A stretch of DNA of 64,000 bases from Dolosigranulum savutiense (GTDB lineage: Bacteria > Bacillota > Bacilli > Lactobacillales > Carnobacteriaceae_A): contig NZ_CP142435.1 of the NCBI RefSeq assembly GCF_039830095.1, positions 1,116,001-1,180,000 on the forward strand, in the 5' to 3' direction. The position numbers and the translations under genes are program-made. Below are positions 2,979 through 61,917 of the stretch, piece by piece. The notes under the pieces are model-generated. The model had not been told where the DNA came from, searched no databases, and was given only the letters and a program-made list of their open reading frames with translations. The number at the start of each line of letters is the position of its first letter. The stretch's first letter is position 1.

Positions 2979-4277
2979 TTATTCGAAGACGGTTTGGGCA
3001 CTGATGTCTGTTTGCAGGGCATCGAGTGCTTTGTCGACGAGTTTGCTACGCAATTTGTATTCTTCTTTGGCATCTAGGTTCGGATTGCCGAGTGGGTGTG
3101 GAATCGCAATAGTTGGTACGATTCGGTTGGCCCCAACTGTCTTGGAGATAGGGACAACGGTACACATGTGAACGACTGGGATACCTGTTTTTTCGATTTC
3201 TTTTACCATTGTTGCTCCGCAACGTGTGCAGGTACCTCAAGTGGATGTTAGAATAACAGCATCGACGCCGTTCGTCTTGAGTTCTTCGGCAATTTCGGAA
3301 GCGAAATTCTTCGCACTAGCCACGGCGGTTCCGTTCCCGGTTGTGGTGTAGAAGTAGTCAAATAGTTTGCCAATGACACCTTCTTTTTCTTTTTCGCGTA
3401 AGACATCAACCGGTAGAACACGGTCAGAGTCTTCGTTGGCAAAGCTTGGATCATAGCCACCGTGTGCGGTTTCGTGTGTGTCTTCTGTTAAGTCAGAGAA
3501 GTCGCTGATATCGTATTTACCGTATTTAGAAGCACTTGATGACTCGATGTGATCTGGGTTGCCTTTTGGTACGATACCACCTGATGTGACGAGAGCAATC
3601 TTCGCATTAGCGAGATCCTTAATGGCGTCACCGGGGTCGACATTATCGAATTCAGGCATTGGATATTCAGTCTCGAAGTCTTCTTTGTTCAGTTTTTTCA
3701 CAAGCATCTCAACGGCACGGGTAGATCCACGGTGCTCAGCTTGGAAGTTTTTACGGTAACGAGTGAAGTAGCCATCTTGACTTGGGCTGACTTCCTCATC
3801 GACTAATAGTTTTTTCACTAAGTTAGCAATCGCTGGGACGGCTTTGCGCATAGAGGCAGCAGATGAGCCGACTTCAATGATGTATGGTGTTTGTCGGTAA
3901 ATGTCCACACCAGGGTTTTCTTCATACATCCCGGTAACGGCTGGAATGTTTAACTCCTTCATGACCGCTTCACTAACGGCACCGGCAGCCATTCCATAAC
4001 GACCAGCGTTAAAGGCAGGTCCAGCGATGACGAGATCAGGTTCGAATGACTTAATCATATCCATGACAGTTGATAAGGCATCCTCATTCTCATTGAAATA
4101 ACTGTCACCACAGACAACGGTTCCTACAACGTCAGCTGCACTACCGAGAGCACCATTGAAGGCTTGTCCCGGTCCAACAGGGCCATCTTTTTTAAAAGGT
4201 TCTGTATTAGCTTTTTCTTCGCCACCAATACCAGCGTAGAACTGGTTAATATAGTGGACTATTTTGTAATTACTCAT
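2979..4277 (-). CDS. grdB: Glycine/betaine/sarcosine reductase component B selenoprotein subunit (Sec by TGA readthrough)
   Basis: Two open frames are joined by an in-frame TGA at 3239-3237, giving a 432-residue protein, close to the usual GrdB length. The context is TST-U-GTCTRCGATMVK, the GrdB active-site motif, with Sec347 followed by Cys350 and Cys353 (UxxCxxC). A hairpin 18 bases after the TGA fits a bacterial SECIS. In known systems GrdB with processed GrdE binds the amine substrate and passes a carboxymethyl group to the selenoprotein GrdA. Glycine, sarcosine and betaine versions (GrdB, GrdF, GrdI) cannot be told apart here. It lies 26 bases after grdE. No grdA or grdC/grdD is in the window. 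Ending translation at the TGA would remove the cysteines and 85 conserved residues, so readthrough is strongly favoured. Confidence 0.92.
3211..3239 (-). promoter_or_regulatory. SECIS-like hairpin of grdB with its UGA
   Basis: Reading the minus strand, the UGA is followed by 13 bases and then GTTGC-GGA-GCAAC, a 5-bp stem whose loop starts with GG. Distance from UGA to loop is 18 bases, inside the range known for bacterial SelB-binding elements, which need a G at the loop tip. Confidence 0.75.
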
Positions 4278-4303
4278 AGTATAACCTCCTTAAAGTCTCT
4301 TAC

Positions 4304-5590
4304 TTAAACGCCTCGAGCGGACATGCGGTTGAAGCCAAGTTCGTTCGTTGCTCCGGTAATGGCTTGAATCTCAACTTCAATCTCGCCACTTGATTGTAGT
4401 GAGCCATCGAATCCACCGGCAATCACATCTACGTAATCAAGTGTTCCGATGAGACGGTCCATTGCTGGGAGGAGAATGGTTTCATTCGCATTCCCACCGG
4501 TGACAGCTGCATTTGCCAATGGGTCAGCATCAGCTAATGATTGGCTAGCACCGTCACGTCCAGCGTATTCATCCGTTACGATAACGGTATCGATACCTTT
4601 TTTCTCAATCTTGGTACTGTTCATGATTAAGTCCGTATCTGGGTTTCCGAATCCTTCTTGAGAAATGATGACACCATCTAGACCGATAAATTCAGCGAGT
4701 TTGGATGTGAAGTCACTGGAGCGTTCTTTGTCAGCTAGATAGACGGTTTCGTTCGTAATAATGACGCCCACGAAGTTAATATCTTTCCCGTGACGTGCGT
4801 AGAGATCTTCAATAATTGGGTTGTTCAAGTGGTGGTAAGTGGTGTTCTTATCACATGCGGATACACAGTTACCACTGATAATCGCACCATCCATGACTTC
4901 AGTTGGGTAAAGCAAGGTCGGAACGATATGCTTGGCATCTGTGCCGTAAACATACGTATCATGCAACAATCCTTGTGTCTGAAGCATGTAGACATAACCG
5001 ACTTTTGGTAAGTCAGGGTACTCATTCATTTGCTCAACAAGCGGCTTCGTCTCGAATGTTTTCACTTCATCGGGTTCGATTTCTTCTGCTAATTTTCCGA
5101 TGAAGGTTGCGACGCGAAGCCCTGCTAGTCGGACTGCTTCTTCGTAACTGTGTGTCTTCAAGTCCTCTGTTGGATTGATGACTAAGCAAATGTTAATAAT
5201 CTGAGAGAAAGGTGTCTTCTCAGCACCTGGTCCAGACATATCGATGATCCCTTCTTGGAATCCGACAATTTTTCCGACAGTTGTGACGCCAATTCCTTTC
5301 ATCACATGCGTACGACCTTGACCGACTTCGTTTACTTTACTGATAACGCCAGGGAAGATCCCACTTTCAGAATCAACTTTACATCTTGGTTCAATGACAT
5401 CCTTGACCGGTGTAATTCGTGTTTTTTCACCAGGTTTTGCGAGTTGGACGTCAGCAGAAGCGAGACGGTCATCTTCTAAGACGATATCGATCAGATCTTG
5501 CTTGTTAATGGTTAAGTGTCCATCGTTTAGGGCTGTTTCATCAGCTAGCGTTACATCTTTAATAGTAATTTCGCCAATTTCTAATTTCAT
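4304..5590 (-). CDS. grdE: Glycine/betaine/sarcosine reductase component B proprotein
   Basis: The 428-residue protein contains GNCVSACDKNTTYHH. Cys242 is the residue where GrdE-family proproteins cleave themselves, leaving a pyruvoyl group that forms a Schiff base with the amine substrate. Length and processing position match the family. With GrdB it forms component B, a cytoplasmic membrane-associated reductase unit. It sits between grdX and grdB on the minus strand with short gaps, so the three are one operon. Which substrate form (GrdE, GrdG, GrdH) is present is not decided by the sequence alone. Confidence 0.9.
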   Translation of the reverse strand: MKLEIGEITIKDVTLADETALNDGHLTINKQDLIDIVLEDDRLASADVQLAKPGEKTRITPVKDVIEPRCKVDSESGIFPGVISKVNEVGQGRTHVMKGIGVTTVGKIVGFQEGIIDMSGPGAEKTPFSQIINICLVINPTEDLKTHSYEEAVRLAGLRVATFIGKLAEEIEPDEVKTFETKPLVEQMNEYPDLPKVGYVYMLQTQGLLHDTYVYGTDAKHIVPTLLYPTEVMDGAIISGNCVSACDKNTTYHHLNNPIIEDLYARHGKDINFVGVIITNETVYLADKERSSDFTSKLAEFIGLDGVIISQEGFGNPDTDLIMNSTKIEKKGIDTVIVTDEYAGRDGASQSLADADPLANAAVTGGNANETILLPAMDRLIGTLDYVDVIAGGFDGSLQSSGEIEVEIQAITGATNELGFNRMSARGV

Positions 5591-5604
5591 CGTAAGTCAC
5601 CTCT

Positions 5605-6006
5605 TTATAAGTTGTTGTGTGATTGACTGGGTCGTTGAGCGCGTATTAGCGCTTGTCGCATTAAGTCTAAATCAATTAAGGCAAAGTCATCTAAGATCGA
5701 TTGCGGCCACTCGGGTGTATGTTGATTTTTTTGGAATTTTTCATGCACCAGGGCTGCTCGTTCAATCATTTCTAGACTAGTTAGATCGATCGCTTCACTG
5801 GGTGTTGTTGTCAGAATGACAGACTTGTAGACCGTTTCGTTCGGCTTCAAACTGCTACTGAGTGGGTGCGTGAGTAAGCTTATTTTGTCGTTAATAATCA
5901 GTTGGCGCACCTGCTCGAACACCGCATCAATCGCTCCATCAACGAACTGAATCGGACAACTTGTAATATGGTTACGGATGGTTGGATTGTTAGTGATGAT
6001 TTGCAT
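5605..6006 (-). CDS. grdX: GrdX family protein
   Basis: This is a 133-residue soluble protein beginning MQIITNNPTIRNH. It resembles GrdX, the first gene of glycine reductase operons, whose biochemical role is unknown. GGAGTC before the ATG serves as ribosome binding site. It is first in the grdX-grdE-grdB operon, 14 bases before grdE, and its position supports the name. Thioredoxin and thioredoxin reductase genes, which usually follow grdX, are absent here. Confidence 0.75.
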   Translation of the reverse strand: MQIITNNPTIRNHITSCPIQFVDGAIDAVFEQVRQLIINDKISLLTHPLSSSLKPNETVYKSVILTTTPSEAIDLTSLEMIERAALVHEKFQKNQHTPEWPQSILDDFALIDLDLMRQALIRAQRPSQSHNNL

Positions 6007-6058
6007 AATAATCTAGACTCCTTTGTATACTGTTAACAACCTTGTCCGGATAGACTGG

Positions 6059-6091
6059 TCAACGAATATAGTAAAATCCCTTAAGTTCCAT
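6059..6091 (-). other. Possible 10-codon leader ORF ending in TGA ahead of grdX
   Basis: On the minus strand an AAAGGAG site precedes an ATG by nine bases and starts MELKGFYYIR, then TGA. The same frame stays open past the TGA and overlaps the start of grdX. It could be a leader peptide or a chance ORF. I see no good SECIS hairpin after this TGA. Confidence 0.3.
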
Positions 6092-6143
6092 ATAAAACAA
6101 CTCCTTTGAGGATAGTAAATCAATCTTTACGGTTTACAAGTTC

Positions 6144-6171
6144 ATTATAGCACAAAAACGATAAATGTCTA
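6144..6171 (-). promoter_or_regulatory. Promoter of grdX-grdE-grdB
   Basis: On the minus strand TAGACA and TATAAT are separated by 16 bases, about 140 bases upstream of grdX. This is a near-consensus housekeeping promoter. Confidence 0.7.
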
Positions 6172-6359
6172 CTCAGATTAACTGATTTAAGAATAATTAA
6201 ATTTTTCAAAGAAGAAAAGTTATAAAGACAATGGTAGCGTGTAGCATTAAATAATAATTCACTAACAAAAAGTATGTGAATTATTTAATAATAATTGCAT
6301 TTTTTCGTGCGAAGTGGTAAGCTTTTAGGTGATGATTGATATGTAGGAGGGGCTGTAAA
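6172..6359. other. Divergent intergenic region between grd operon and selD
   Basis: The AT-rich spacer contains no gene. AATAATTCAC (6253-6262) and GTGAATTATT (6276-6285) form an inverted repeat with a 13-base centre, a possible operator or stem-loop upstream of selD. The selD ribosome binding site is AGGAGG shortly before the ATG at 6360. Confidence 0.45.
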
Positions 6360-7397
6360 ATGAGTGAAGAGAAAAAAAGAAAACATATGTGTATGTCAGC
6401 GGGAGGCGGCTGAAACGCCAAAATAGGTCCGGGTGACCTCAGTGCGTTGTTGAAGACGATTCCCACGAGAGATGATGAGAATTTAATTGTTGGATATGAT
6501 TCAAGTGATGATGCATCAGTCTATAAGTTAAGTGATGATATTGCCGTGATTCAGACGATTGACTTTTTCCCATCTATGGTAGAAGATCCGTATTTATTCG
6601 GTCAAATCGCAGCGACGAATGCGTTAAGTGATGTCTATGCGATGGGAGGCGAAGTGATTTCGGCACTTAATATTGTCACCTATCCAAGTGGGGATGATTA
6701 TGACTTGTTAGGGGAGATTTTACGCGGAGGTGCAAGCAAGGTACACGAAGCCGGAGCGAGTCTAAGCGGGGGGCATTCGATTCATGATGATACCATTAAG
6801 TATGGTCTATCCGTGAATGGACGTGTTCATCCAGACCGTATTATTCGCAATGATGGGGCACGTGTAGGAGACATCCTCATTCTGACAAAACCAATCGGCG
6901 TTGGGATCGTTACAACGGGGTATAAGAAAGGCAAGTTGAGCCAAGAAGCCTTCGATGAGGCGTGTCATTGGATGACGACGCTGAACAAGCATGTGGCGGA
7001 TGTGATGAAGCATCACCCTATTACGAGTGCGACTGATGTAACAGGCTTTGGTTTGTTAGGTCATATTAAGGAGATGTTAGGTGAGCGGGTGAGTGCGGAG
7101 ATTAAAGCCGAGCAGGTTCCGTATATTAAAGAAGCTTACAGCGGTGCAGAGCAGGCTCTGACAACCGGAGGCGGTAAGCGGAATCGGGCATTTTTAGCTG
7201 AACATCTTGACTTCCAAATCGATGATCCCGCTATGGAAGAAGTCTTGCTTGACCCACAAACATCGGGTGGGTTAGTCATTAGTATTGATGAAGAGCATAG
7301 CCAAGCATTCTTAGACGAATTAGCTGAGAAAGATATTTTTGCCCGAGCGATTGGTCAAGTGACTGACAGACAAGACAAGACAATTATTATCAATTAG
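6360..7397 (+). CDS. selD: Selenide, water dikinase, itself a selenoprotein
   Basis: SelD makes selenophosphate from selenide and ATP. Starting at the ATG at 6360, after an AGGAGG site, the N-terminus reads SAGGG-U-NAKIGPGDL, with the TGA at 6411-6413 at codon 18 in the position of the catalytic Cys/Sec of the family. A conserved Lys lies three residues later. With readthrough the protein is 345 residues, the normal length. Starting after the TGA would delete the active site. The rest shows typical SelD blocks such as TDVTGFGLLGH and LLDPQTSGGL. It begins the plus-strand selenium operon. Enzyme identity is firm; Sec incorporation is inferred from motif and hairpin. Confidence 0.95.
6411..6439 (+). 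promoter_or_regulatory. SECIS-like hairpin of selD with its UGA
   Basis: After the TGA come 11 bases, then AGGTC-CGGGT-GACCT, a 5-bp stem with a G-containing loop starting 16-17 bases from the UGA. It fits the loose rules for bacterial SECIS elements, slightly less cleanly than the other two in this window. Confidence 0.65.
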
Positions 7398-7458
7398 TAT
7401 TATTAATTAAACTGATAAGTAGGTAGTGTTAGCGAACTCAATAGAAAGAGGGATAACG

Positions 7459-7815
7459 ATGACTGATCTGACAAAAGATGCGTATGTTGTTGTCATTAGC
7501 AGTGATATGATGGGAGATGGAGAGCGTGAAATCGGCGAAAAATTAATGACGAGTTTCACGTATGCCTTGAGCGAACAGGACCAATTCCCAACGCATGTCT
7601 TGTTCTATAACAGCGGGGTACATGTGAGTGCCGGGGAATCTAAGGCACGTGAAGATCTGGTGAAACTACAAGAAGCTGGTGTGAAGATTCAGTCTTGTGG
7701 AACGTGCCTAGATTATTATGGTTATGATAAAGCGAACTTACCGGTCGGAGAAGCGACGAATATGTACGAGATTGTTCGTATTATGCGCAGTGCTTCTCGT
7801 GTGGTGAAGCCATAA
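7459..7815 (+). CDS. yedF: YedF-type selenium metabolism protein (DsrE-like domain only)
   Basis: This 118-residue protein matches the C-terminal DsrE-like half of YedF proteins associated with selenium use. It begins AYVVVISSDMMGDGEREIG and has a Cys pair in SCGTCLDYYG (Cys80, Cys83). The N-terminal TusA-like domain found in the longer YedF form is missing. I start at the ATG at 7459, behind AGAGGG. It is placed between selD and selB and probably handles activated selenium or sulfur. Exact chemistry is unknown. Confidence 0.8.
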   Translation: MTDLTKDAYVVVISSDMMGDGEREIGEKLMTSFTYALSEQDQFPTHVLFYNSGVHVSAGESKAREDLVKLQEAGVKIQSCGTCLDYYGYDKANLPVGEATNMYEIVRIMRSASRVVKP

Positions 7816-7847
7816 TATTGGAGCTAGACGAGGAAGAGGTGACGCCT

Positions 7848-8096
7848 ATGTTACTCCTGACATTTAATCATTCCCATGATGCTATGCATGCTGAGTTAGT
7901 GATAGATCGTCACGGTATAAAAGGCCGACTCATCCCGACACCGGAGCGTATTAGTGCGCAGTGTGGGTTGACCTTGAAGTTGCCGGAAGCAGACATTGAG
8001 ACGATCCAACAGCTGATGCAGGCAGAGTCTATTCAACCAAGTGGGTATTATGGAGTAGATAACAGTGGGACATACACAACATTATCAGAAAGTTGA
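7848..8096 (+). CDS. DUF3343 family putative Se/S carrier
   Basis: This 82-residue protein begins MLLLTFNHSHDAMHAELV and has the single conserved Cys in SAQCGLTLKL typical of the DUF3343 family, often found next to yedF and suggested to carry selenium or sulfur. The ATG at 7848 has GAGGTG six bases upstream; a longer reading from 7818 is less likely. selB begins just three bases after its stop. Confidence 0.75.
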   Translation: MLLLTFNHSHDAMHAELVIDRHGIKGRLIPTPERISAQCGLTLKLPEADIETIQQLMQAESIQPSGYYGVDNSGTYTTLSES

Positions 8097-8099
8097 GTG

Positions 8100-9998
8100 A
8101 TGACAGTGGTGGAGAAGAGAAATATTGTAATCGGAACGGCGGGTCATGTTGACCACGGGAAGACAACCTTAATTAAGGCCCTAAGTGGGATTGATACGGA
8201 TACAACAGAAGAAGAACATCGTCGGGGGCTATCCATTAATTTGGGCTTTGCCTACATGACCTTAGATGATGGGACGGAAGCTGGAATTGTTGATGTGCCC
8301 GGACATGAGAAGTTCTTGAAGAATATGTTAGCCGGGGCACCGGGTCTGGATTTGGCGTTATTGGTGATCGATGCGAATGAAGGTATTATGCCACAGACGT
8401 CTGAGCATGCGAATATTTTGCGTCTATTAGGGATTGAGAACTTCATTATTGTCTTAACAAAGGTCGATGGGGTAGATGAGATCTTACTGGAAATTGTACA
8501 AGAAGATATTCGGGAGCAATTCCAAGGAACGGCTTTAGCGGAAGCTCCCATTATTGCCACCGATGCCTTAGCGGAGATTGGGATTGACCAGTTGCGGGCC
8601 GAGATTACGGAGCGTTGTAGCCAAATGACACGTGAAGCATCTAAATTACCACCACGTCTGAATGTTGATCGTAGCTTTTCGGTAAAAGGGTTCGGAACAG
8701 TTGTCACAGGAACGTTGGTGGACGGGATGCTTCATGTTGGTGATGATATGACGATTTATCCGAGTGGTCTACAGACACGGATTCGTAATATCCAAATTCA
8801 CGAAGAAGATGTAGAGGTAGCGTATCCGGGCAATCGAACGGCTTTGAACTTAACGAAGGTCGATGTGGATGAGGTGCCTCGGGGAAGTGTGCTAACAACG
8901 GCGCATTTGCCAGCTAGTTATATGTTAGATGTGAATGTGCAGTGCTTGCCGGATTCTCCATATGCCTTGGAACTCTGGGATCGCGTGCATGTTCATATAG
9001 GAACGCAAGAAGTCCGCGCACGGATTGTTCCAATCGGGGCAGAGACCATTCATCAAGGCGAGACCGGGTACTTACAGTTGCGCTTGGAAGAGAAGGTATC
9101 GGCTAAAGTAGGGGATCATTTCATCCTGCGTTCATTCTCTCCACTGCACACGATTGCGGGCGGGACTGTCCTAGACGAGGATCCGCAGAAGCATAAGCGG
9201 TTTAATGAAGAGGTAATCGAGAGCTTGCAAGTGAAAGAGTCCGGTGACTTTGGTGAGATTATGATTGACTTCTTGCGAAAAGAAACGACTGGCTTAACGG
9301 ATGAGCGAACTATTAGTGAAGAACTTAATATCGAACTACCGCATGTAAAAGAGTTGACCGGCGAATTAATTGACCAAGGGAAGCTCTACGCATTCGGGCA
9401 TCAAGTCATGGCGGCGGAAGATGTCCAGCAGTTCACTAATCGCGTCCAGCAACTTTTGGGTGATTATCATGCCACTTATCCGATTCGATCAGGGATGCCA
9501 CTAGAAGAATTCCGGACCAAATTCAAGGAGTTAGCACCAAAAGATTTGGATGCATTGTTGAAGTATGTAACGCAAGAAGAGTTGGTAGCCAGTGAGGATA
9601 ATCGCATTCGTCTGACGGCATTTAACCCAGAACTGGAAGGAGAAGCACGCGAGATCAGTGACGAAATCGACGCGACTTTCCGTGAAGCAGGGATGAATCC
9701 ACCGACACCAGAAGCGGTGATTCAAGATGACCAGACGAGACAAGAAGTGTTTAATCAGATGATTGGTCGACAATTGTTCCGTCTAGATAAGTATGAATAC
9801 ATTCATATGTCTGTCTATGAGGATGCCCGTGCGCAAGTAATTCAGTACTTGCAGCGTCATGGTGAGATCGAATTAGCGACCTTCCGTGACATGATGGATA
9901 CGTCCCGGAAATATGCGATGTTACTGTTGGAGCACTTGGATGATGCGGGTGTGACCAAGCGAGTGGGCGATGTGCGCATACTGAGAGAGAAGGAGTGA
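8100..9998 (+). CDS. selB: Selenocysteine-specific elongation factor
   Basis: SelB delivers Sec-tRNA to UGA codons by binding the SECIS hairpin. The N-terminal GTPase has GTAGHVDHGKTTL, DVPGHEKF and TKVD. The C-terminal half is long and helical, as expected for the winged-helix repeats that bind SECIS RNA. Total length of about 632 residues is normal. A GTG just before the ATG could also start it. The stop overlaps the region where selA begins, so the two are translationally linked. Its presence supports recoding of the three TGA-containing genes here. Confidence 0.95.
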   Translation: MTVVEKRNIVIGTAGHVDHGKTTLIKALSGIDTDTTEEEHRRGLSINLGFAYMTLDDGTEAGIVDVPGHEKFLKNMLAGAPGLDLALLVIDANEGIMPQTSEHANILRLLGIENFIIVLTKVDGVDEILLEIVQEDIREQFQGTALAEAPIIATDALAEIGIDQLRAEITERCSQMTREASKLPPRLNVDRSFSVKGFGTVVTGTLVDGMLHVGDDMTIYPSGLQTRIRNIQIHEEDVEVAYPGNRTALNLTKVDVDEVPRGSVLTTAHLPASYMLDVNVQCLPDSPYALELWDRVHVHIGTQEVRARIVPIGAETIHQGETGYLQLRLEEKVSAKVGDHFILRSFSPLHTIAGGTVLDEDPQKHKRFNEEVIESLQVKESGDFGEIMIDFLRKETTGLTDERTISEELNIELPHVKELTGELIDQGKLYAFGHQVMAAEDVQQFTNRVQQLLGDYHATYPIRSGMPLEEFRTKFKELAPKDLDALLKYVTQEELVASEDNRIRLTAFNPELEGEAREISDEIDATFREAGMNPPTPEAVIQDDQTRQEVFNQMIGRQLFRLDKYEYIHMSVYEDARAQVIQYLQRHGEIELATFRDMMDTSRKYAMLLLEHLDDAGVTKRVGDVRILREKE

Positions 9999-10003
9999 GC
10001 GCG

Positions 10004-11383
10004 GTGCAAGAGAAGTTAAGTCAATTACCGAAGATGGATGAGTTATTAGAAGATGTGGCGATTGCGCCCTGGTTCGAGGTGTTCGACCGTTCCTATGTTA
10101 AAAATTGCTTGAATAAAGCGCTGAATCAAGTGCGACAAGCGATCCTGGCGGGTGAAGATGCCGATATCTCTCGCACAGCTGTTGTCGCTCTTGCCGACCA
10201 CTACCTTACAGTAAAACATCGCCCTAATTTACGCCCGGTGATTAATGCGACGGGAACAGCTCTGCATACGAATCTTGGCCGCGCCTTGTTATCTGATAAA
10301 GCCGTCGAAGCAACGCTACAAGTGAACGCACGCTATAGTAACTTAGAGTACAACATTGAAGCAGGACAACGGGGCAGTCGCTATGCTCACGTAGAGGACT
10401 TGCTAAAAGAATTGACCGGGGCAGAAGCGGCCTTAGTAGTGAATAACAACGCGGCAGCCGTTATGTTGCTCTTGACAGCAACGACACAAGGCCAAGAGGT
10501 ATTGATTTCGCGCGGAGAATTAGTTGAGATTGGCGGGTCCTTCCGCGTACCGGACGTTATTGAGAGTGTCGGTGCTCGTCTGAAGGAAGTTGGCGCAACC
10601 AATAAGACCCACTTACGTGACTATAAGCGCGCCATCACCGAGGAGACGGGCGCACTATTGCGGGTGCATACGAGTAACTATCGGGTTGTTGGCTTCAGCC
10701 AAGTGCCCGATGATAAAGATCTAGTCGCGTTAGCGCACCAACATGACTTGCCGGCCTTCAACGACTTGGGAAGTGGTCTGTTAATAGATATGCAACCACT
10801 CGGCTTACCGCGAGAACCGCTTGTGTCTGAAGTCGTTGCATCTGGTTATGATGTGGTTAGCTTCAGTGGGGACAAATTATTAGGCGGTCCTCAAACGGGT
10901 ATCTTAGTCGGGACTAAGCAATATATTGACCAATTGAAGCGCCATCCGTTGTTGCGAGCCCTGCGCGTTGACAAGATGACACTTGCTGGATTAGAAGCGA
11001 CATTACAAGCTTACTTGAAGCCGGAGCAGGCCATGAAAGATATTCCGTTACTCCAGATGTTAGGCCAGTCAGAAGAAAACCTCGCTCGTAAAGCTCAAAC
11101 GTTGGCGGACGACATTCGAGCGCTGGATAAAGGCTATCAAGTAAATATTATAGAGGGCCAATCTCAAGTTGGAGGCGGGGCTTTCCCCGAAGCCCGACTA
11201 GCGACTCATTTAGTGGAGATTAGCCATCCAGATTATTCTGAGAGCACGTTGGAGCAAAAACTGCGCCAAGCAGAATTCCCTATTATTGCTCGAACGTCGG
11301 ATGGGAAAGTCCAATTCGATGTGCGGACCTTACTTGACGCGGATAGCGGGAAAATTTGCCAAGCATTAGTTGAAATGATTTAA
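10004..11383 (+). CDS. selA: L-seryl-tRNA(Sec) selenium transferase
   Basis: SelA converts seryl-tRNA(Sec) to selenocysteinyl-tRNA with selenophosphate. The protein contains SFSGDKLLGGPQTGI, carrying the PLP-binding Lys, and NATGTALHTNLGRALLS near residue 85, both typical of SelA. I prefer the GTG at 10004 because AGGAG lies eight bases before it. A GTG at 9995 overlapping the selB stop is the alternative. It ends the selD-yedF-selB-selA series. tRNA-Sec (selC) was not found in the window. Confidence 0.95.
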   Translation: MQEKLSQLPKMDELLEDVAIAPWFEVFDRSYVKNCLNKALNQVRQAILAGEDADISRTAVVALADHYLTVKHRPNLRPVINATGTALHTNLGRALLSDKAVEATLQVNARYSNLEYNIEAGQRGSRYAHVEDLLKELTGAEAALVVNNNAAAVMLLLTATTQGQEVLISRGELVEIGGSFRVPDVIESVGARLKEVGATNKTHLRDYKRAITEETGALLRVHTSNYRVVGFSQVPDDKDLVALAHQHDLPAFNDLGSGLLIDMQPLGLPREPLVSEVVASGYDVVSFSGDKLLGGPQTGILVGTKQYIDQLKRHPLLRALRVDKMTLAGLEATLQAYLKPEQAMKDIPLLQMLGQSEENLARKAQTLADDIRALDKGYQVNIIEGQSQVGGGAFPEARLATHLVEISHPDYSESTLEQKLRQAEFPIIARTSDGKVQFDVRTLLDADSGKICQALVEMI

Positions 11384-11400
11384 ATGAACTGAGAGAATAA

Positions 11401-11442
11401 ATCACTGAACAGTGAGGATATGTTTTAGCCCTGTTTAGTGAT
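11401..11442. repeat. Inverted repeat after selA
   Basis: ATCACTGAACAG and CTGTTTAGTGAT form a 12-bp stem with one wobble pair around an 18-base loop. No T-run follows on the plus strand, so it is not a standard terminator there. It may be an operator or an RNA processing site in front of the E2-like gene. Confidence 0.5.
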
Positions 11443-11504
11443 GGGAAGATTTGTTCGATGATGATCAATTTTGAAAATAGAAAATGTAGTAGAAGGGGAT
11501 CAAG

Positions 11505-13031
11505 ATGGTCTACACACTGAAATTGCCACGATTGGGCGAAGGGTTATTCGAAGCTCAAGTGGTGAATATACTTGCGAATAAAGGATCGTCTGTTACTGAG
11601 GATACAATAATTGCTGATATGCAGACGGATAAAGCAGCCGGAGAACTGCAATCCCCCGTTGAGGGGAAAGTGGTGGATATCTTGATGAAGGAAGGTGAGT
11701 TCGTCTATCAGGGGGATCCGCTTGTCTTAATTGATGATGGTTCGGACACGCCACCCGATCTGAGTAATGACTCTGGGGTCTACCGTGGCCCATCTGGAGT
11801 GGGTGGTGCAACCGTTAAAGCTAACTCTGGCAAATCAGAGAAAAAACAGCCTAAAAATACAGATAAAACACCGAACAACGCGTCAAAGACTGTCTTGGAC
11901 TTATCAGCGGGCAAGCAATCATTAGGTAAAGCCCAGTACAAAACAACACGTCGCGCAAAAGCGAGAGCGACAGCACCTGGACAAGACCAGACGCAATCGC
12001 CTCGATCAACGGCTGAACAGCCCAACGCTACGCCTCAGCTATCAGCAACTGAAAAAGAGCGACGGGAATATTTTGCTCAGTATTACAATACTGACTTTGA
12101 GCTGAAACATGATAACCGCCCACAACAACCCACGAAGAACGTTCAGGCAATGCCTTACGTGCGAGCTTATGCCCGCCAATTAGGAATTGACTTGGCCCAA
12201 ATTAATCAAGAAGGTGATATTGTGAAAAAAGAAGATATCGAGACATTGAAGAAGCAAAATGCGATTGAGAAGTCGATCTATCCGTTTAAGCCAGTTGACC
12301 AATATGCGCCACTCTATAGTAGTACGCGTGAAGATGAACAAGAAGAGATCGAACTCAGTTATATTCGGAAGTGGAATGCTTCAGCGTATGAGATGCAACA
12401 TCGTATCGTGCCACCGTTTACCCTGTTCGAAGAAGTGGATGCTAGTGCCTTGTTAGCGATGATGGACGACTATGAACGTGATGGAATCGAGTTAGATAAC
12501 TACTTACCATTCGTGGTGAAGGCAGTCGTCGCTGCGGCAGAGAAGTTCCCACGGTTGAATGCTTCGCTTGATGATAGTGTGGCTACATTCGTCCAAAAAG
12601 ATTACTGCAGTGTCGGTATTGATGTGAATACGGTACAAGGGATGTTCACGCCGGTCATTCACGATGCTCAGCAGAAATCATTGGAGACAATCCAAGAGAC
12701 GATTAAGCAGCTGTCCAAAGATGTCCAGACACGTACCTTCGAGTGGGATAACTTATCAGAAGGCACGATTACGATTACAGACTGTTCTAATATTCGTTCA
12801 AAAGTGGGACACTTCACACCGATGATTCACTATCCGCAATCCGCTTGCTTGGGATTGGGCACCATTGAAGATAAGCCAGTGATTTATGAAGGAGAAGTTG
12901 TCGCGCAACCAACCCTACCCCTATCATTGACAGTTGATTATCGGGTGGTTGATCGGAAGGATGCTTTCGCTGCCATGGCGTTCTTGAAAGAGTTACTCGA
13001 ACACCCGAATAAATTATTGTTCCAAAGTTAA
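11505..13031 (+). CDS. Lipoyl-domain E2-like acyltransferase with altered active site
   Basis: The 508-residue protein has the E2 layout: an N-terminal lipoyl domain with lipoylatable Lys43 in MQTDKAAGE, a long Ala/Pro/Gln/Lys-rich linker (about 80-190), a peripheral-subunit-binding segment MPYVRAYARQLGIDL (about 214-228) and a C-terminal catalytic domain (about 270-508). The usual DHRVVDG active-site motif is DYRVVDR here, so the catalytic His is Tyr479. No E1 or E3 genes are nearby. It lies between selA and an esterase. It may be a divergent acyltransferase or a lipoyl carrier without transferase activity. Confidence 0.8.
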   Translation: MVYTLKLPRLGEGLFEAQVVNILANKGSSVTEDTIIADMQTDKAAGELQSPVEGKVVDILMKEGEFVYQGDPLVLIDDGSDTPPDLSNDSGVYRGPSGVGGATVKANSGKSEKKQPKNTDKTPNNASKTVLDLSAGKQSLGKAQYKTTRRAKARATAPGQDQTQSPRSTAEQPNATPQLSATEKERREYFAQYYNTDFELKHDNRPQQPTKNVQAMPYVRAYARQLGIDLAQINQEGDIVKKEDIETLKKQNAIEKSIYPFKPVDQYAPLYSSTREDEQEEIELSYIRKWNASAYEMQHRIVPPFTLFEEVDASALLAMMDDYERDGIELDNYLPFVVKAVVAAAEKFPRLNASLDDSVATFVQKDYCSVGIDVNTVQGMFTPVIHDAQQKSLETIQETIKQLSKDVQTRTFEWDNLSEGTITITDCSNIRSKVGHFTPMIHYPQSACLGLGTIEDKPVIYEGEVVAQPTLPLSLTVDYRVVDRKDAFAAMAFLKELLEHPNKLLFQS

Positions 13032-13043
13032 GGAGGAAAACTG

Positions 13044-13769
13044 GTGTCGTCTATTTATTATCCTGGCCATGCGAATGGTGTTTTACTGCTCCATTCGTTG
13101 ACCCATACTCCGGATGTCGTCTTCTACCTGGCCAATCGTCTGAAAAAAGCGGGGTGGACAGTCTATGCCCCGTGTCTGAGTGGACATGATCAAGAGCGAA
13201 TGCTGTCACTGCTGAAGTCATCGGTGGCAGACTGGACGGCTGATGTCCAAGAAGCGGTCCAGTTCTTGCGCGAAGAAGGCTGTCAGGAGATGGCAGTTAT
13301 AGGTCAGTCATTAGGCGGGCTCTTGACCTTACAAGTGCTCCTAGATCAGCCGGACATCGCATGCGGTGGCATTCTAAGTGCTCCCGCCTTCAAGAAGTGG
13401 GAGACGACTGCCATTTATGAAGAAGTAGCTAAACGCGTGGCGACCAACGATCAAGTAGGCTTGGTGCCTAATCTAGCTAAAGAACAGCAAGCAGCGAAGA
13501 AGAAGCTTGATCGCATACTAATAGACTTAGAAGCTCTCATCGACACGATGATTCCCAACTATGAAAAAATCCCTCAACCGCTCTTTATCGGTCAAGGGAT
13601 GGTGGATGATATGGTTGCGGTGGCGAATGCTGAAACATTAGCAGCAACTGTTGAGCAGAGTCGCCTTGCGCTCTATGAAGAAGCTGGTCATATCTTAACC
13701 ACTTCTGCAGTGAACCGTCAGTTAGCTGATGATTTGATTGCCTTCTTACGCGAACAGGGGTGGGAATAG
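13044..13769 (+). CDS. Alpha/beta hydrolase, carboxylesterase-like
   Basis: The 241-residue cytoplasmic hydrolase resembles Est30-type carboxylesterases. The nucleophile Ser is in GQSLGG, an acid lies in QGMVDDMV and the His in EEAGHIL near the C-terminus, giving a complete triad. The start is GTG, with AGGAGG seven bases upstream. It follows the E2-like gene by 12 bases and ends exactly against the convergent desulfurase gene. Natural substrate unknown. Confidence 0.8.
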   Translation: MSSIYYPGHANGVLLLHSLTHTPDVVFYLANRLKKAGWTVYAPCLSGHDQERMLSLLKSSVADWTADVQEAVQFLREEGCQEMAVIGQSLGGLLTLQVLLDQPDIACGGILSAPAFKKWETTAIYEEVAKRVATNDQVGLVPNLAKEQQAAKKKLDRILIDLEALIDTMIPNYEKIPQPLFIGQGMVDDMVAVANAETLAATVEQSRLALYEEAGHILTTSAVNRQLADDLIAFLREQGWE

Positions 13770-14915
13770 TTAATGACTATATTCTTGGGCAAGTTGGTGG
13801 ATGGCCGCAATCGCTTGGTCGATCTCCTCGGTCGTTGTGAAGTGGGAGAGACTGAAGCGGACAGCGCCTTGATTAGTGGTACCTAGCGCATCATGGGCAA
13901 GTGGTGCACAGTGAGCTCCAGAACGTGTCGCAATATCGAAGTCGCTAAGTAGTCGGTCGGAGATAATGCTGGAATCAACTGAGCCGATATTGAGGGTGAT
14001 AATTGGACAGCGATAAGTTGCCTGCATCGGGCCATAACAGGTGACGTTAGCTAAATCTTTTATCCCATTATAAAAATAGGCGGTCAGTTCTTGCTCGTGC
14101 TGCTGAATCTGATCTACCCCATAATCGAGCAAATAATTCACCGCGGCATGTAAGCCAGCAATGCCGTGGCTATTAAGCGTGCCGGCTTCTAGACGGTCCG
14201 GCATTTGGGTAGGTTGGGTTAACTGATGTGACTCAGATCCTGTCCCACCAGCTTTTAGCGGTCGGATATCAAGGCCCTCACGTACATAGAGTCCGCCAGT
14301 TCCTTGTGGGCCCAGTAAGCCTTTATGCCCAGTAAAGCAGAGCACATCAATCTGCATCTGTTGTACATCAATCGGGACAGCACCAAGTGTCTGAGCAGCA
14401 TCGACCACAAAGTAAAGCCCATATTGCTCAGCTAATTGACCCACATAAGCGAGATCAATAATACTTCCGGTTAGGTTTGATCCGTGGGCAAGGATAATCA
14501 GAGTAGTATTGTCTTGGACAAGCGTGGGAATCTTGTCAACTTGCACTTCGCCCACCTCATTAATGGGCAGATAGCTTACTTCAACTCCGTATTGCTTCAA
14601 CTCCTCTAGCGGGCGCAAGACGGAATTATGTTCGAGCACAGAAGTAATAACATGATCTCCCGGGTTTAGTAAGCCCCGAATAGCGATATTTAAACTTTCA
14701 GTGGCATTGTGTGTGAAGACAATTTGGCGGGAAGAGGTGCCGCCGACTAACCGGTTGAGCGCTTCTCTCGTTTGGAAAATAATGCGCGATGAGCTGAGCG
14801 AAGCATCATTTCCCCCGCGTCCGGCATTACCGAAGGATCCCATAGCTTCTTGCACGGCCTCCAATACAGCAGGGGGCTTTTTTAATGTTGTTGCAGCATT
14901 GTCAAGATAAATCAT
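13770..14915 (-). CDS. Cysteine desulfurase / selenocysteine lyase-like PLP enzyme
   Basis: This 381-residue class-V aminotransferase fold protein has the PLP Lys in TGHKGLLGPQGTG and a catalytic Cys in RSGAHCAPLAH. It belongs to the SufS/CsdB-like subgroup that accompanies selD and yedF in other Firmicutes, where it is thought to release selenium (or sulfur) for SelD. AAAGGAG lies before the ATG. It is on the minus strand after the PrdB-like gene, with two hairpins between them. Family is firm; the selenium role is inferred from the neighbours. Confidence 0.88.
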   Translation of the reverse strand: MIYLDNAATTLKKPPAVLEAVQEAMGSFGNAGRGGNDASLSSSRIIFQTREALNRLVGGTSSRQIVFTHNATESLNIAIRGLLNPGDHVITSVLEHNSVLRPLEELKQYGVEVSYLPINEVGEVQVDKIPTLVQDNTTLIILAHGSNLTGSIIDLAYVGQLAEQYGLYFVVDAAQTLGAVPIDVQQMQIDVLCFTGHKGLLGPQGTGGLYVREGLDIRPLKAGGTGSESHQLTQPTQMPDRLEAGTLNSHGIAGLHAAVNYLLDYGVDQIQQHEQELTAYFYNGIKDLANVTCYGPMQATYRCPIITLNIGSVDSSIISDRLLSDFDIATRSGAHCAPLAHDALGTTNQGAVRFSLSHFTTTEEIDQAIAAIHQLAQEYSH

Positions 14916-14937
14916 AACAAACTCCTTTCTGATGGGT

Positions 14938-14984
14938 AAAAAGAGGCGGGCCTATCCAATATGTGACACGAAGGAACCGCCTCT
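14938..14984 (-). terminator. Terminator or attenuator just upstream of the desulfurase
   Basis: On the minus strand AGAGGCGG and CCGCCTCT close a 27-base loop and are followed by TTTT. It lies about 25 bases before the desulfurase start codon, so it may regulate readthrough from the PrdB-like gene. Confidence 0.6.
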
Positions 14985-15001
14985 AGCTCATTATTATGTA
15001 A

Positions 15002-15029
15002 AGAGATTAGCATAGCGCTAATCTCTTTT
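15002..15029. terminator. Hairpin terminator after the PrdB-like gene
   Basis: AGAGATTAGC and GCTAATCTCT pair around ATAGC. The stem is perfect. The T-run is on the plus strand, and on the minus strand the flank is only moderately U-rich. Confidence 0.55.
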
Positions 15030-15038
15030 GTGGTTGAT

Positions 15039-15860
15039 TTAGTTATCTTGGTTATCTGGCTGGTAGATGAGACCACCATTATCGTCGTCCCATTTATAAG
15101 GAGAGATGAAGTAATCCATCTCACCACCGTGCATCGCAAAATCTAGCACGTCAGCCATAATATTTTCGTGTTGTTCGAAGTCATACGGTTTCGAGAACGT
15201 ACAGCCAAGTGGAGCATCAACGATAAACATGCGAGGAGGTCTTACTCTCTCAGCAAGGTTCGGAACATGCATCACAGAAGCGGTACGAATGCCTCGGGAC
15301 TCAATTTCTCTTTGCAGCAACCCAACGGATTGATGGCACATGAATCAGCCCGGAGACAATACCGTAATATCAACTTCATCTTCTTCCAGCATATCAGCTA
15401 TCTCAACCGCTGACTGCTTAATAAGCACATCGACACGGGGAATGTGCCCCATTAACCCAAAGTTTCGTGGAGCGAAGGAACCGATCGTGCCGTCATCACT
15501 CATCTTACGCAGCGTATGAATTGGATAAACACAATCCAAATCTTCGTGCGCAGCCTGGTTCGGATAGCGGACATGAGTAATCATTAAGTCATCATACGAG
15601 ACATCACCCGGTACAATACGGTAGGATGGATCCCCTGTAATGATGAATGGCGTATCGCCCTTGGTATGAATTCCCACCGTTGCGACGAGGGCAACACGGC
15701 ATTCACTTAACGGCTTGTCGATCTTAGGAGCAATCACGGGATCTTCCGAAATCGTTATACAGTTCACCGCCAGCTTCTCTGCCTTGTCTTTCTCGAAGTC
15801 AATCTGCTTCCGATCATTCGTTGTCGGTAGCGCCCGAGGAATATGATTTAAGATGTTCAT
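15039..15860 (-). CDS. PrdB-like selenoprotein of the Grd/Prd reductase family (Sec by TGA readthrough)
   Basis: Two frames join through a TGA at 15347-15345 to give 273 residues. The join reads LSPG-U-FMCHQSVGLLQREIE, with Sec172 and Cys175 (UxxC), and is followed by a SECIS-like hairpin. The sequence resembles D-proline reductase PrdB: VALVATVGIHTKGDTPF, then ITHVRYPN, YPIHTLRKM and FAPRNFGLMGH. PrdB normally works with the pyruvoyl protein PrdA, which is not seen here, so the substrate is unknown. It has its own promoter at 15903-15931 and GGAGG before the ATG. The family is confident. Whether it reduces proline, serves the neighbouring GrdE/GrdB or does something else is open. Confidence 0.88.
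15318..15347 (-). promoter_or_regulatory. SECIS-like hairpin of the PrdB-like gene with its UGA
   Basis: On the minus strand the UGA is followed by 12 bases and then CAATCC-GTT-GGGTTG, a 6-bp stem with one wobble and a loop starting with G. The UGA-to-loop distance is 18 bases, the same as in grdB. Confidence 0.78.
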
Positions 15861-15902
15861 AGTCGACCTCCTCTCTGTTGTTCAATATTTCACTACATAG
15901 CT

Positions 15903-15931
15903 ATTATACAAAAAATCCCCCCTAATTACAA
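15903..15931 (-). promoter_or_regulatory. Promoter of the PrdB-like gene
   Basis: TTGTAA and TATAAT are separated by 17 bases on the minus strand, about 40 bases before the start codon. Confidence 0.75.
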
Positions 15932-16067
15932 ACTATTATTCCTAGAAGAAATCTGGTGAGTTGTATAATTAAATGCAAGAAGGAAAACACTTAAAAAAGC
16001 CATATTCTCTGCTCATCTGAACGTGCAACCGTACAGAAAAGACAAAAAATATGACAAATCACAATAT

Positions 16068-16098
16068 AAAAAAGCACGGACAGTTGTGGGACTGCCCG
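16068..16098 (-). terminator. Terminator of the candidate ncRNA
   Basis: On the minus strand CGGGCAGT pairs with ACTGTCCG around a 6-base loop, followed by TGC and six T. Confidence 0.8.
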
Positions 16099-16264
16099 AC
16101 CTAATGATTAGGCTCTCGCCTAACTCTCCTTTGTGCCTCCTAAGCTTGTCGCCAGAGAACAGTTTTTAAGCTCTGCCAAGCCACGCCAGGTGCTTGCTGA
16201 CGTGTCTACCATTACAGTAGATCCGCTGAGCGGGCAAGGATGTTATGCTCAAGAGATCCTTGCT
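16068..16264 (-). ncRNA. Candidate structured ncRNA of about 200 nt
   Basis: This gene-free stretch is bounded on the minus strand by a strong promoter and a strong terminator, and contains several hairpins. A 5' stem of GCAAGGAT with ATCCTTGC comes first, then TCTAC/GTAGA, an imperfect CAAGC/GCTTG stem, TTAGGC/GCCTAA with a GAGA loop, and the terminator. TTGCCCG after the first stem could also pair with CGGGCAG of the terminator stem, an alternative fold. Only short ORFs are seen. I could not match it to 6S RNA, tmRNA, RNase P, SRP RNA or a riboswitch. It is about 200 bases upstream of the PrdB-like gene, which has its own promoter. Confidence 0.65.
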
Positions 16265-16270
16265 ACTTAA

Positions 16271-16299
16271 ATTATACAATACACCATGTTATAATTCAA
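16271..16299 (-). promoter_or_regulatory. Promoter of the candidate ncRNA
   Basis: TTGAAT and TATAAT are 17 bases apart on the minus strand. The predicted RNA start is 7-10 bases after TATAAT, directly at the first hairpin. Confidence 0.75.
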
Positions 16300-16379
16300 A
16301 CTTAAATCTGAGTTGAAGTTTGCCGTGATAGGGGATTTTAAGATTTTAAAAGCTCCTTTAGAGAAAATCCTCATTATCG

Positions 16380-16408
16380 TTCACAAATACACTTACATGT
16401 GATACAAT
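16380..16408 (+). promoter_or_regulatory. Promoter of the TDT transporter gene
   Basis: TTCACA and TACAAT are separated by 17 bases, about 40 bases before the ATG at 16451. Confidence 0.55.
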
Positions 16409-16450
16409 ACACATGACAAGCAATACATTAATATAAGGAGTGAATAACAG

Positions 16451-17374
16451 ATGAATTTAGCGAAGAAAGAAATTGTGCCATTATCAGGTGTGGCGCTGGG
16501 ATTGGCGGCACTAGGGAATTTGCTCGGGCAGTTCAGTGTGTGGGCCCGGTATCTATGTGGTGCGCTGTCCTTGGGGTTAATGGTGGTGGTAAGTATCTAT
16601 ATCTTCCAGCATACGGAGCAGTTCAAGCAGAAGATGAAACATCCGGTCATGATGTCGGTCTTCGGAACATTTAGTATGGCGGGGATGCTCTTAGCCACCT
16701 ATGTGATGCCTCTATCTGCAATCTTGGCACGCATAATCTGGATGATTTTTATTCTACTGCACATCTTTATTGCAGTAGCCTTCACGAAGCGATTTGTTTT
16801 TAACTTTGACCGAATGAATGTCTTCCCCAGCTGGTATATTGTCTATGTGGGGATTGTCGTCGTAAGTGTGACTGCACCGCTGTTCAACCGGATCATTTTG
16901 GGACAGGTAGCCTTCATCGTTGGATTGGTGACGTATATTATGTTGCTTCCAATCGTGTTCTACCGAGTCTTAGTGACAAAACAGTTCCCTCTCCCAGCTC
17001 AGTCAAGTATAGCGATCAATGCCGCACCAGCCGCACTTCTACTTGCCGGATATGTCAGCAGTTTTCCAGAAGGGAGTAAGATTATCTTCTACTTGTTAAT
17101 GCTTGTATCTCAGGCACTATTTATTTATGTTCTTTGCAGATTACCAAAAATTATGACGAAACAATTCTTCCCAGGGTTCTCAGCCTTTACGTTCCCGTTC
17201 GTGATTTCGGCCTTATCCTTGCGTGTAGCGTTGAAGGCAGCGGCAGGTCAAGGTGGTATCTGGCCAGCCTTACGCATGATTGCTCTCTTAGAAGTAATCT
17301 TCGCAACAGTTATGGTTGGGTATGTTTTTATCCGCAATATGAAGTACTTGTTCCAAGCCTCTGACATGAATTAG
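16451..17374 (+). CDS. TDT family (TehA/SLAC1-like) membrane transporter
   Basis: This 307-residue protein has about ten membrane segments and the motif FPSWYIVYVGIVVVSVTAP, typical of the tellurite-resistance/dicarboxylate transporter (TDT) family. AAGGAG precedes the ATG. Members move anions such as malate, or sulfite in fungi. The substrate is not known here. In many Firmicutes the position upstream of secA is held by the hibernation factor gene hpf, which is absent. Confidence 0.8.
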   Translation: MNLAKKEIVPLSGVALGLAALGNLLGQFSVWARYLCGALSLGLMVVVSIYIFQHTEQFKQKMKHPVMMSVFGTFSMAGMLLATYVMPLSAILARIIWMIFILLHIFIAVAFTKRFVFNFDRMNVFPSWYIVYVGIVVVSVTAPLFNRIILGQVAFIVGLVTYIMLLPIVFYRVLVTKQFPLPAQSSIAINAAPAALLLAGYVSSFPEGSKIIFYLLMLVSQALFIYVLCRLPKIMTKQFFPGFSAFTFPFVISALSLRVALKAAAGQGGIWPALRMIALLEVIFATVMVGYVFIRNMKYLFQASDMN

Positions 17375-21361: not shown

Positions 21362-21710
21362 ATTCGCTTTAAAAAATAGAAACATTAAAATCATCAAAAT
21401 CAAAGATAAAAGAGACCTGAGAGACCACTACTGAAAATGAGGAGAGTTCCCAGTAAAGGAACGGTTGGATGATGGGACAGTTAAGTATCTTTCGTATCAT
21501 ATGGGGAAGGATTTAATACATTTTTTTGAAAGTTCAGATATTATGCCGGTGTAAAATAGACGTTAATGACAGGTTTATTTCGGGATAATTAAACTAAAAA
21601 GTTGTGAATTCAATTAAAAATATACAAAAAAGTCGTATTTTTTTCGTTAAGTATCAAAATAATGTCTGTATAATATAGGAGTAAAAATAAATTTTTTGGA
21701 GGATAACACA
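21362..21710 (+). other. Long leader region before the first YSIRK gene
   Basis: About 350 AT-rich bases without a gene. A small hairpin (GTTCC/GGAAC near 21448-21464) is visible. A likely promoter has TTAAGT (21647-21652) and TATAAT (21669-21674) 16 bases apart, and GGAGG lies before the ATG. Confidence 0.5.
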
Positions 21711-61651: not shown

Positions 61652-61667
61652 ACTAAACAGTTAAATA

Positions 61668-61828
61668 AAAAACAGAGGCGCGAAAACGATGAGTCATTAT
61701 CTGGAGGTTGACACCCGAAGAACGATAATAAAAGGCGAATTCGCCGAAGGACAGCTGTGTTGGAAGTTGATCCTGGGTCATGGTTGAATAAATCATGGAC
61801 TGTCACGTTAGTGGAGTACTGTCTTAAT
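61668..61828 (+). promoter_or_regulatory. Lysine riboswitch (L box)
   Basis: Conserved blocks appear in the right order: CAGAGGCGCG, AGTCATTA, AAGGCGAATTCGCCGAAGG, CTGGGTCATGG, GGACTGTCAC and TGGAGTACTGTC. The first and last segments can pair as P1. Lysine binding would favour the terminator that follows and stop expression of the transporter. Confidence 0.92.
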
Positions 61829-61837
61829 GAACTGCGG

Positions 61838-61875
61838 AGGAATCTGGGGCATGCTGCTTTGGATTCCTTTTTTTG
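61838..61875 (+). terminator. Riboswitch-controlled terminator
   Basis: AGGAATC pairs with GATTCCT, followed by a long T-run, 40-50 bases before the transporter start. Confidence 0.85.
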
Positions 61876-61917
61876 TTAAGGAAGGCTCTCACAATGACAA
61901 TTTTAGGAGGAATTATT

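Follow-up and report, generated by a model that had tools for sequence, protein, structure and literature searches.

One selenium island of Dolosigranulum savutiense houses a complete glycine reductase and a stand-alone PrdB-like selenoprotein

Why would a member of the Lactobacillales encode component B of glycine reductase and a selenocysteine (Sec) protein resembling PrdB of D-proline reductase in one stretch of DNA, with no partner for either in sight? The stretch, hereafter the window, comprises 64,000 nucleotides of D. savutiense (bases 1116001-1180000 of the single 1,978,477-base contig NZ_CP142435.1; genome completeness 98.63%). A first-pass annotation of the window alone had listed a selenium island with grdB, grdE, grdX, the sel genes and a prdB-like gene; translation with TGA as Sec and comparison with family models showed that this list was right in outline. 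The analysis showed that the one island houses two things, a complete glycine reductase and a stand-alone PrdB-like selenoprotein. Our joint reading, to which we assign a probability of roughly 0.7, is that an ordinary complete glycine reductase is accompanied by a PrdA-independent, dithiol-driven Sec reductase of the GrdB/PrdB superfamily.

We looked for the partners of component B in the rest of the genome and found them in an 18 kb stretch (L002, bases 1099000-1117000) that overlaps the window, the first base of which is L002 base 17002. Located 2.6 to 10.5 kb upstream of the window are genes for a phosphotransacetylase (Pta; L002:6455-7432, 399 bits against a cut-off of 311), tRNA-Sec (L002:7747-7844, minus strand, 64.5 bits against 47), an AgcS carrier (L002:8112-9539, 424 bits against 273), GrdA (L002:9681-10148, with CFVU at the UGA at 9807-9809; NF040748, 261 bits against 130), TrxB (L002:10265-11224, 355 bits against 343), a TrxA of clostridial type (L002:11252-11578, 149 bits against 140), GrdC (L002:11732-13270, 788 bits against 450) and GrdD (L002:13282-14445, 557 bits against 350). 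The ends of GrdD and GrdA are about 2.6 kb and 6.9 kb, respectively, from the window start. The orphan component B of the first-pass annotation is thus ruled out as an artefact of the window edge, since the genome search located grdA, grdC, grdD, both thioredoxin system genes and selC (the tRNA-Sec gene) just outside it, and a full grd set therefore accounts for the GrdE/GrdB half of the puzzle.

The window itself contributes the remaining three components, all on the minus strand. The grdB gene (2979-4277; TIGR01917, 688 bits against a cut-off of 602) encodes, when TGA is read as Sec, 432 residues with Sec at codon 347 (UGA at 3237-3239) in the motif STUGTCTRC, and a SECIS_4 element (a selenocysteine insertion sequence, SECIS; 3199-3236, minus strand; Rfam RF01990, 55.4 bits, gathering score 38) lies immediately 3' of this UGA. 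GrdB is of the glycine type, the NCBIfam sarcosine and betaine models remaining under their cut-offs. The grdE gene (4304-5590) encodes a protein in which Cys242, in SGNCVSAC, is the candidate pyruvoyl precursor. GrdE scored under the cut-offs of all four NCBIfam models that it matched (the highest score, for the sarcosine type, being 664 bits where 780 are required), yet it plainly belongs to the family. The third gene, grdX, is found at 5605-6006 (NF038093, 123 bits against a cut-off of 40).

The glycine reductase gene set is complete, with GrdA, GrdC, GrdD, TrxA and TrxB upstream and GrdE, GrdB and GrdX in the window, and GrdB/GrdE is therefore the ordinary component B of this enzyme. In glycine reductase, GrdE and GrdB bind glycine, GrdA carries the carboxymethyl-selenoether, TrxA and TrxB reduce the adduct borne by GrdA, and GrdC and GrdD, with phosphate, yield acetyl phosphate. 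The neighbouring phosphotransacetylase and AgcS carrier would fit product use and substrate import, respectively. All components of the clostridial GrdABCDE and TrxA/TrxB system are present here, including the UGA codons of GrdA and GrdB, the cysteine of GrdE and the SECIS_4 element after the GrdB UGA; the arrangement differs from the clostridial one in that grdXEB lies on the strand opposite to the grdA-trx-grdCD block, with uptake genes between them. Mechanistically, the predicted enzyme is nothing new.

The second occupant of the island is a different matter. The PrdB-like gene (15039-15860, minus strand, UGA at 15345-15347) encodes, with TGA again read as Sec, 273 residues with Sec172 in the motif LSPGUFMCHQSVG, of which UFMC forms a UxxC pair. 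The protein exceeded the gathering score of Pfam GRDB (PF07355, 30.6 bits against 22), and its best-scoring NCBIfam model was that of PrdB (TIGR04483), at 152 bits under a cut-off of 300. No PrdA over the cut-off was found in the whole window genome, where the sole match to the PrdA model was GrdE (75 bits against 700), and none was found in any of 11 clade genomes; a hidden PrdA is thereby ruled out, at the sensitivity of the model, in the genomes searched. As the first-pass annotation had allowed for, PrdA is missing, and the PrdB-like selenoprotein is a real orphan.

Comparison within the order Lactobacillales gave the same picture. Some match to the protein was present in 38 of 395 genomes, and these fell into close relatives in 11 genomes (that of the window included, the other 10 showing 45-56% identity; 12 genes in all, with a single TGA in each), PrdB-type genes in 22 (31-35% identity) and a match of GrdB length only in 5. 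PrdA was encoded within 1.5 kb at all 19 of the PrdB-type loci examined, drawn from the 22 such genomes, versus none of the 10 loci of close relatives. The earlier remark that such genes would be unusual in Lactobacillales holds only in part, given the PrdB-type genes of those 22 genomes and a match of GrdB length in at least 26 of the 395.

The first-pass annotation had also suggested a different reductase built from GrdE, GrdB and the PrdB-like protein, perhaps with a pyruvoyl subunit from GrdE serving the other two. The NCBIfam models of PrdB and PrdA are matched by GrdB and GrdE, respectively, so the GrdB/GrdE pair is homologous to the PrdB/PrdA pair, and all 11 clade genomes hold matches to the PrdA model under its cut-off, presumably GrdE. 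However, no partner is missing for GrdB and GrdE, and the PrdB-like gene is not beside grdE in the window genome, nor in the mapped stretches of most relatives, where its neighbours are others; at locus L052, grdB and grdE lie about 9 kb from it. The co-occurrence with GrdE may only mirror a common need for the Sec machinery, and we regard a shared GrdE as very improbable.

We then compared the protein with PrdB in alignments and trees. The active-site motif was [LM]SPGU[YF][IM]CHQSVG in 11 clade rows versus TAGUGTCHRTA in three PrdB rows, and a second motif was MG[YH][IV]P in the clade rows versus MGGGGDQ in those of PrdB, while the UxxC pair and about 20 residues were invariant over both. 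In a maximum-likelihood tree of 34 rows, the six PrdB rows stood apart with a support of 100/100 on a stem of about two changes per column. The window protein fell, with the PrdB rows outside, within a clade of 13 (Lactobacillales and Tissierella pigra; 100/97), where it paired with the second copy of Aerococcus sp. HMSC062A02 (100/100, stem of 0.76). We call these two proteins type II and the remaining clade members type I.

That the window protein is a D-proline reductase PrdB with a lost or very divergent PrdA is barely credible in the light of these comparisons. PrdB is indeed its best-scoring model, and the proteins are homologous over most of their length and share the UxxC Sec motif; however, the score is about half of the family cut-off, the clade is separate, PrdA is absent from the 11 genomes at the model's threshold, both PrdB motifs are replaced and the gene neighbours are others. 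Judged by its sequence, the protein is not PrdB but a member of a separate clade of the proline-reductase family, which bears out the earlier suspicion that it may not be a proline reductase.

A scan with the clade alignment over one genome per species (84,980 species) yielded 32 loci, from Facklamia, Aerococcus, Atopobacter, Atopococcus, Tissierella, Bacillus/Neobacillus and kin, Nitrospirota, Deltaproteobacteria and Chloroflexota. As the scan rests on two short patterns, the 32 loci are no census, and members with cysteine could be missed. All 32 had a UGA at the active site, and the motif varied from SPGU..CHQSV in Lactobacillales and Tissierella to NPGUYICHQSV in Bacillaceae and TPGUG.CN[QR]SV or TPAUGLCNRSV in the others. 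Selenoprotein genes thus occur in several Lactobacillales families.

The neighbourhoods of these genes in the 32 loci were scored by tblastn, any match of 60 bits or more within a locus being counted, and were informative for type I. Among the 10 Lactobacillales loci, two of which end at contig ends, a TIGR04283-type glycosyltransferase and a rhodanese-type protein were each matched in all 10, a TIGR04282-type glycosyltransferase and a VTT protein in nine each, YnjB in six and rSAM_SeCys in four. All 12 Bacillaceae loci had YnjB, VTT, LPG-synthase-TM and CDP-alcohol phosphatidyltransferase matches, and nine had YdjY. The comparison of neighbourhoods that had been proposed for PrdB-like proteins thus placed 22 of the 32 clade loci in clusters of the ydj-ynj or glycosyltransferase type, versus none of three PrdB-type control loci. 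In the 395 genomes of the order, rSAM_SeCys exceeded its cut-off in four, and all four encode the clade protein.

Escherichia coli K-12 carries ydjXYZ-ynjABCDEF in one stretch. When its proteins were compared with five of the loci, YdjZ (49-59% identity) and YdjX were matched in all five, YnjE (22-42%) in four, YdjY (38-51%), YnjB (34-39%) and YnjD in three each, YnjC in two and YnjF in one, that of Neobacillus, while none of the five gave a match to YnjA. The likeness of the clusters to the E. coli stretch is therefore partial, and it involves different parts in Bacillaceae and in Lactobacillales. These 22 clusters are thus homologous to parts of the E. coli stretch and of the rSAM_SeCys/ArsS "arsenosugar" cluster (TIGR04167, TIGR04282, TIGR04283); the "arsenosugar biosynthesis" names of NCBIfam are annotations, not tests.

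The type II context consists of other genes. In the window, a pseudo-E2 with a lipoyl domain (TDKA) and a 2-oxoacid acyltransferase domain is encoded at 11505-13031 (plus strand; PF00364, PF00198), and an alpha/beta hydrolase (Hydrolase_4) begins 12 bp 3' of it (13044-13769, plus strand; PF12146, 72 bits). An anion transporter of the SLAC1/TDT family (16451-17374, plus strand; PF03595, 74 bits) lies beyond the PrdB-like gene. In Aerococcus sp. HMSC062A02, the type II copy (L045:9641-10483) has a SLAC1/TDT homologue alongside (L045:10568-11542), and its neighbours further include an E1-alpha/E1-beta pair, an E2-like protein and a hydrolase. The type I copy of this genome is about 21 kb away from the type II copy, within a glycosyltransferase cluster. 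A candidate Bacilli-1 RNA was also seen between the PrdB-like gene and the transporter of the window (16158-16222, minus strand; its 53.3 bits fall slightly short of the gathering score, 55.6). It is preceded by a promoter-like site and followed by a terminator-like hairpin, and its transcript would perhaps span 16264-16077.

Comparison of the two pseudo-E2s showed that both keep the lipoyl TDKA and lack the acyltransferase motif DHRxxDG (DYRVVDR in the window and DARIVTR in Aerococcus). They matched each other at 277 bits versus at most 187 against ordinary E2s, and they paired with a support of 100/100 in a five-row tree with three ordinary E2s. Both type II genomes also carry an ordinary pyruvate dehydrogenase set, the E2 of which has DHRxxDG. 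Of the E1-alpha matches in the window genome, the two clear ones each belong to a set with an ordinary E2, and two others are weaker (31 bits). On the evidence of the two clear genes, a separate E1 for the pseudo-E2 of this genome was rejected; a dedicated E1 pair was seen only at the Aerococcus locus.

We infer a dithiol-driven reductase from the UxxC pair, the homology to GrdB and PrdB, the lack of PrdA and the redox character of some neighbours, namely the rhodanese of type I, the redoxin and CcdA of some of its loci, and the lipoyl protein of type II. In such an enzyme, Sec172 would attack an electrophilic substrate or a disulfide, Cys175 of the UxxC pair would resolve the adduct, and an external dithiol would restore the selenol; TrxA could supply it, or the nearby pseudo-E2 through its dihydrolipoyl arm. 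We give even odds to this reaction class, a dithiol-driven Sec reductase working without a pyruvoyl subunit.

A bolder version would make type II a lipoyl-driven selenoenzyme, in which the pseudo-E2 would pass electrons or an acyl group from the E1 of a 2-oxo acid dehydrogenase to Sec172, the hydrolase would release the product and the SLAC1/TDT transporter would export the anion. If true, it would be a Stickland-like reduction coupled to the oxidation of a 2-oxo acid without PrdA, GrdA or a pyruvoyl group; we consider it improbable.

Several results weigh against the proposed reductase and its setting. Ten of the 32 loci show none of the neighbour set, save one with CcdA and a redoxin. The window genome, which in this differs from the ydj-ynj and arsenosugar-type clusters, has no YnjB (22 bits versus 203), TIGR04283 protein (62 versus 182) or rSAM_SeCys; this lack rules out membership of the window gene in a ydj/ynj or ArsS cluster, and for the same reason the setting of the relatives tells nothing certain about the role of the window protein. 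Type II was found in two genomes only, in searches of 395, 27 and 76 genomes (overlapping sets). The desulfurase gene, on the opposite strand to the E2/hydrolase pair, separates that pair from the PrdB-like gene, and 590 bp containing the Bacilli-1-like RNA lie between the PrdB-like gene and the transporter; the parts are on different strands.

The RNA and the fold added points on the same side. No Rfam SECIS reached its gathering score after the PrdB-like UGA, and none was found in locus L014 at an E value of 0.5. The 48-nucleotide fold after this UGA was no better than those of shuffled sequences (z of 0.35), in a test that has little power, because the Rfam-matched SECIS of GrdB also failed it (z of 0.51); of the six stretches folded, those from L045 and L016 were left out of account, as they do not start at the UGA. 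The AlphaFold2 model of the protein was confident (predicted local distance difference test of 89.5, predicted template modelling score of 0.89). A Foldseek search of solved structures with this model gave no match at E of 0.001 or below (the best had an E value of 0.0058 and a template modelling score of 0.27), so the fold gives no mechanism, and a search of solved structures by sequence gave one chance-looking match (E of 0.24).

The small number of type II genomes and the separation of the gene from both the pseudo-E2 pair and the transporter would suit a plainer account, as would the UxxC motif itself: type II might be a simple thiol-disulfide oxidoreductase or a protective selenoprotein with no dedicated pathway, its neighbours being coincidental. 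However, members of three gene families recur at distances of up to about 6-7 kb from type II in genomes of two bacterial families, and the acyltransferase motif is lost in both E2s. We regard this plainer account as rather unlikely.

The Sec machinery of the island is encoded around these genes. The selD gene (6360-7397, plus strand; TIGR00476, 367 bits against a cut-off of 125) itself encodes a selenoprotein, with a UGA at 6411-6413 in MCMSAGGGU. It is followed on the plus strand by a yedF-like gene with the DsrE half only (7462-7815; TIGR03527, 133 bits, profile positions 83-194 of 194; PF02635), a DUF3343 gene, now Se_S_carrier in Pfam (7848-8096; PF11823, 73 bits), selB (8097-9998; TIGR00475, 352 bits) and selA (9995-11383; TIGR00474, 596 bits). 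The cysteine desulfurase or selenocysteine lyase-like gene is located at 13770-14915 on the minus strand (TIGR01977, 455 bits against 377). The first-pass annotation had counted three visible selenoproteins, SelD, GrdB and the PrdB-like protein; all three were confirmed, and GrdA just upstream brings the island to at least four.

Between the grd block and the window, L002 encodes a TsuA/YeeE-like sulfur transporter (14627-15652), a TusA protein (15693-15929) and a putative selenate-binding protein of an ATP-binding cassette (ABC) importer (16042-16956; TIGR04553, 296 bits against 250), followed by an ABC ATPase that extends into the window. The sel genes, tRNA-Sec and the putative selenate importer would together supply selenium. 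YedF looks split, its DsrE half standing after selD and the TusA-type protein standing apart, adjoining the TsuA/YeeE-like transporter. Elsewhere, in the Facklamia and Aerococcus loci L046, L047, L048, L050, L052 and L053, sel genes or a related desulfurase are no more than 20 kb from the PrdB-like gene; selenium supply and the PrdB-like cluster are thus often found together.

Further along the window, two large surface proteins (21696-24797 and 29820-35633) have YSIRK signal peptides and several GA modules, and the second also has long near-identical repeats. A lysine riboswitch (61665-61829, plus strand, 94.9 bits) lies upstream of a gene of the Na+/H+ antiporter family (61873-63639).

Proteins with such a UxxC motif have been filed under PrdB before. 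In the portions of these reports available, a Sargasso Sea survey lists 42 UxxC selenoprotein sequences under PrdB or proline reductase (PMC1088965), a Global Ocean Sampling survey gives 235 UxxC selenoproteins under Pfam GRDB (PMC2398784), PrdB or proline reductase entries are recorded for Anaeromyxobacter and a Geobacter (PMC1794560), and a further report files 131 proteins from 110 organisms as PrdB or proline reductase (PMC5029168). Those surveys (PMC1088965, PMC2398784, PMC1794560) give, in the same portions, neither clade nor gene neighbourhood, and the likeness to our clade is one of description. Reviews of 2022 and 2026 treat PrdB as D-proline reductase in the parts available (PMC9312934, PMC13188914). 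According to an excerpt of the 2006 report, Enterococcus faecalis, with an orphan SelD, was then the only known SelD-containing member of the Lactobacillales (PMC1794560).

The fluoroacetate reductase FarE/FarB, as described in the accessible part of its report (PMC10838667), likewise puts a Grd-type component B to a new use, with a FarE devoid of cysteines for a pyruvoyl group; it differs in that FarB works with FarE, whereas the window protein is of PrdB size and has no such partner beside it. No account of the genomic context of the clade was found in the literature searched, which did not cover subscription journals or bioRxiv.

The analysis removes a false lead, the orphan component B, and puts a sharper one in its place, a branch of the PrdB family that does without PrdA and whose genomic setting is informative. 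The family that surveys file under PrdB or proline reductase holds a separate clade that has no PrdA over the cut-off in 11 genomes, which suggests that the label proline reductase cannot safely be given to an orphan PrdB. To the ydj/ynj genes, which are poorly understood, the clade offers a redox selenoenzyme as a testable candidate partner, and the proximity of type II to a lipoyl-bearing pseudo-E2, if the two are functionally linked, would represent a new way to feed a selenoenzyme.

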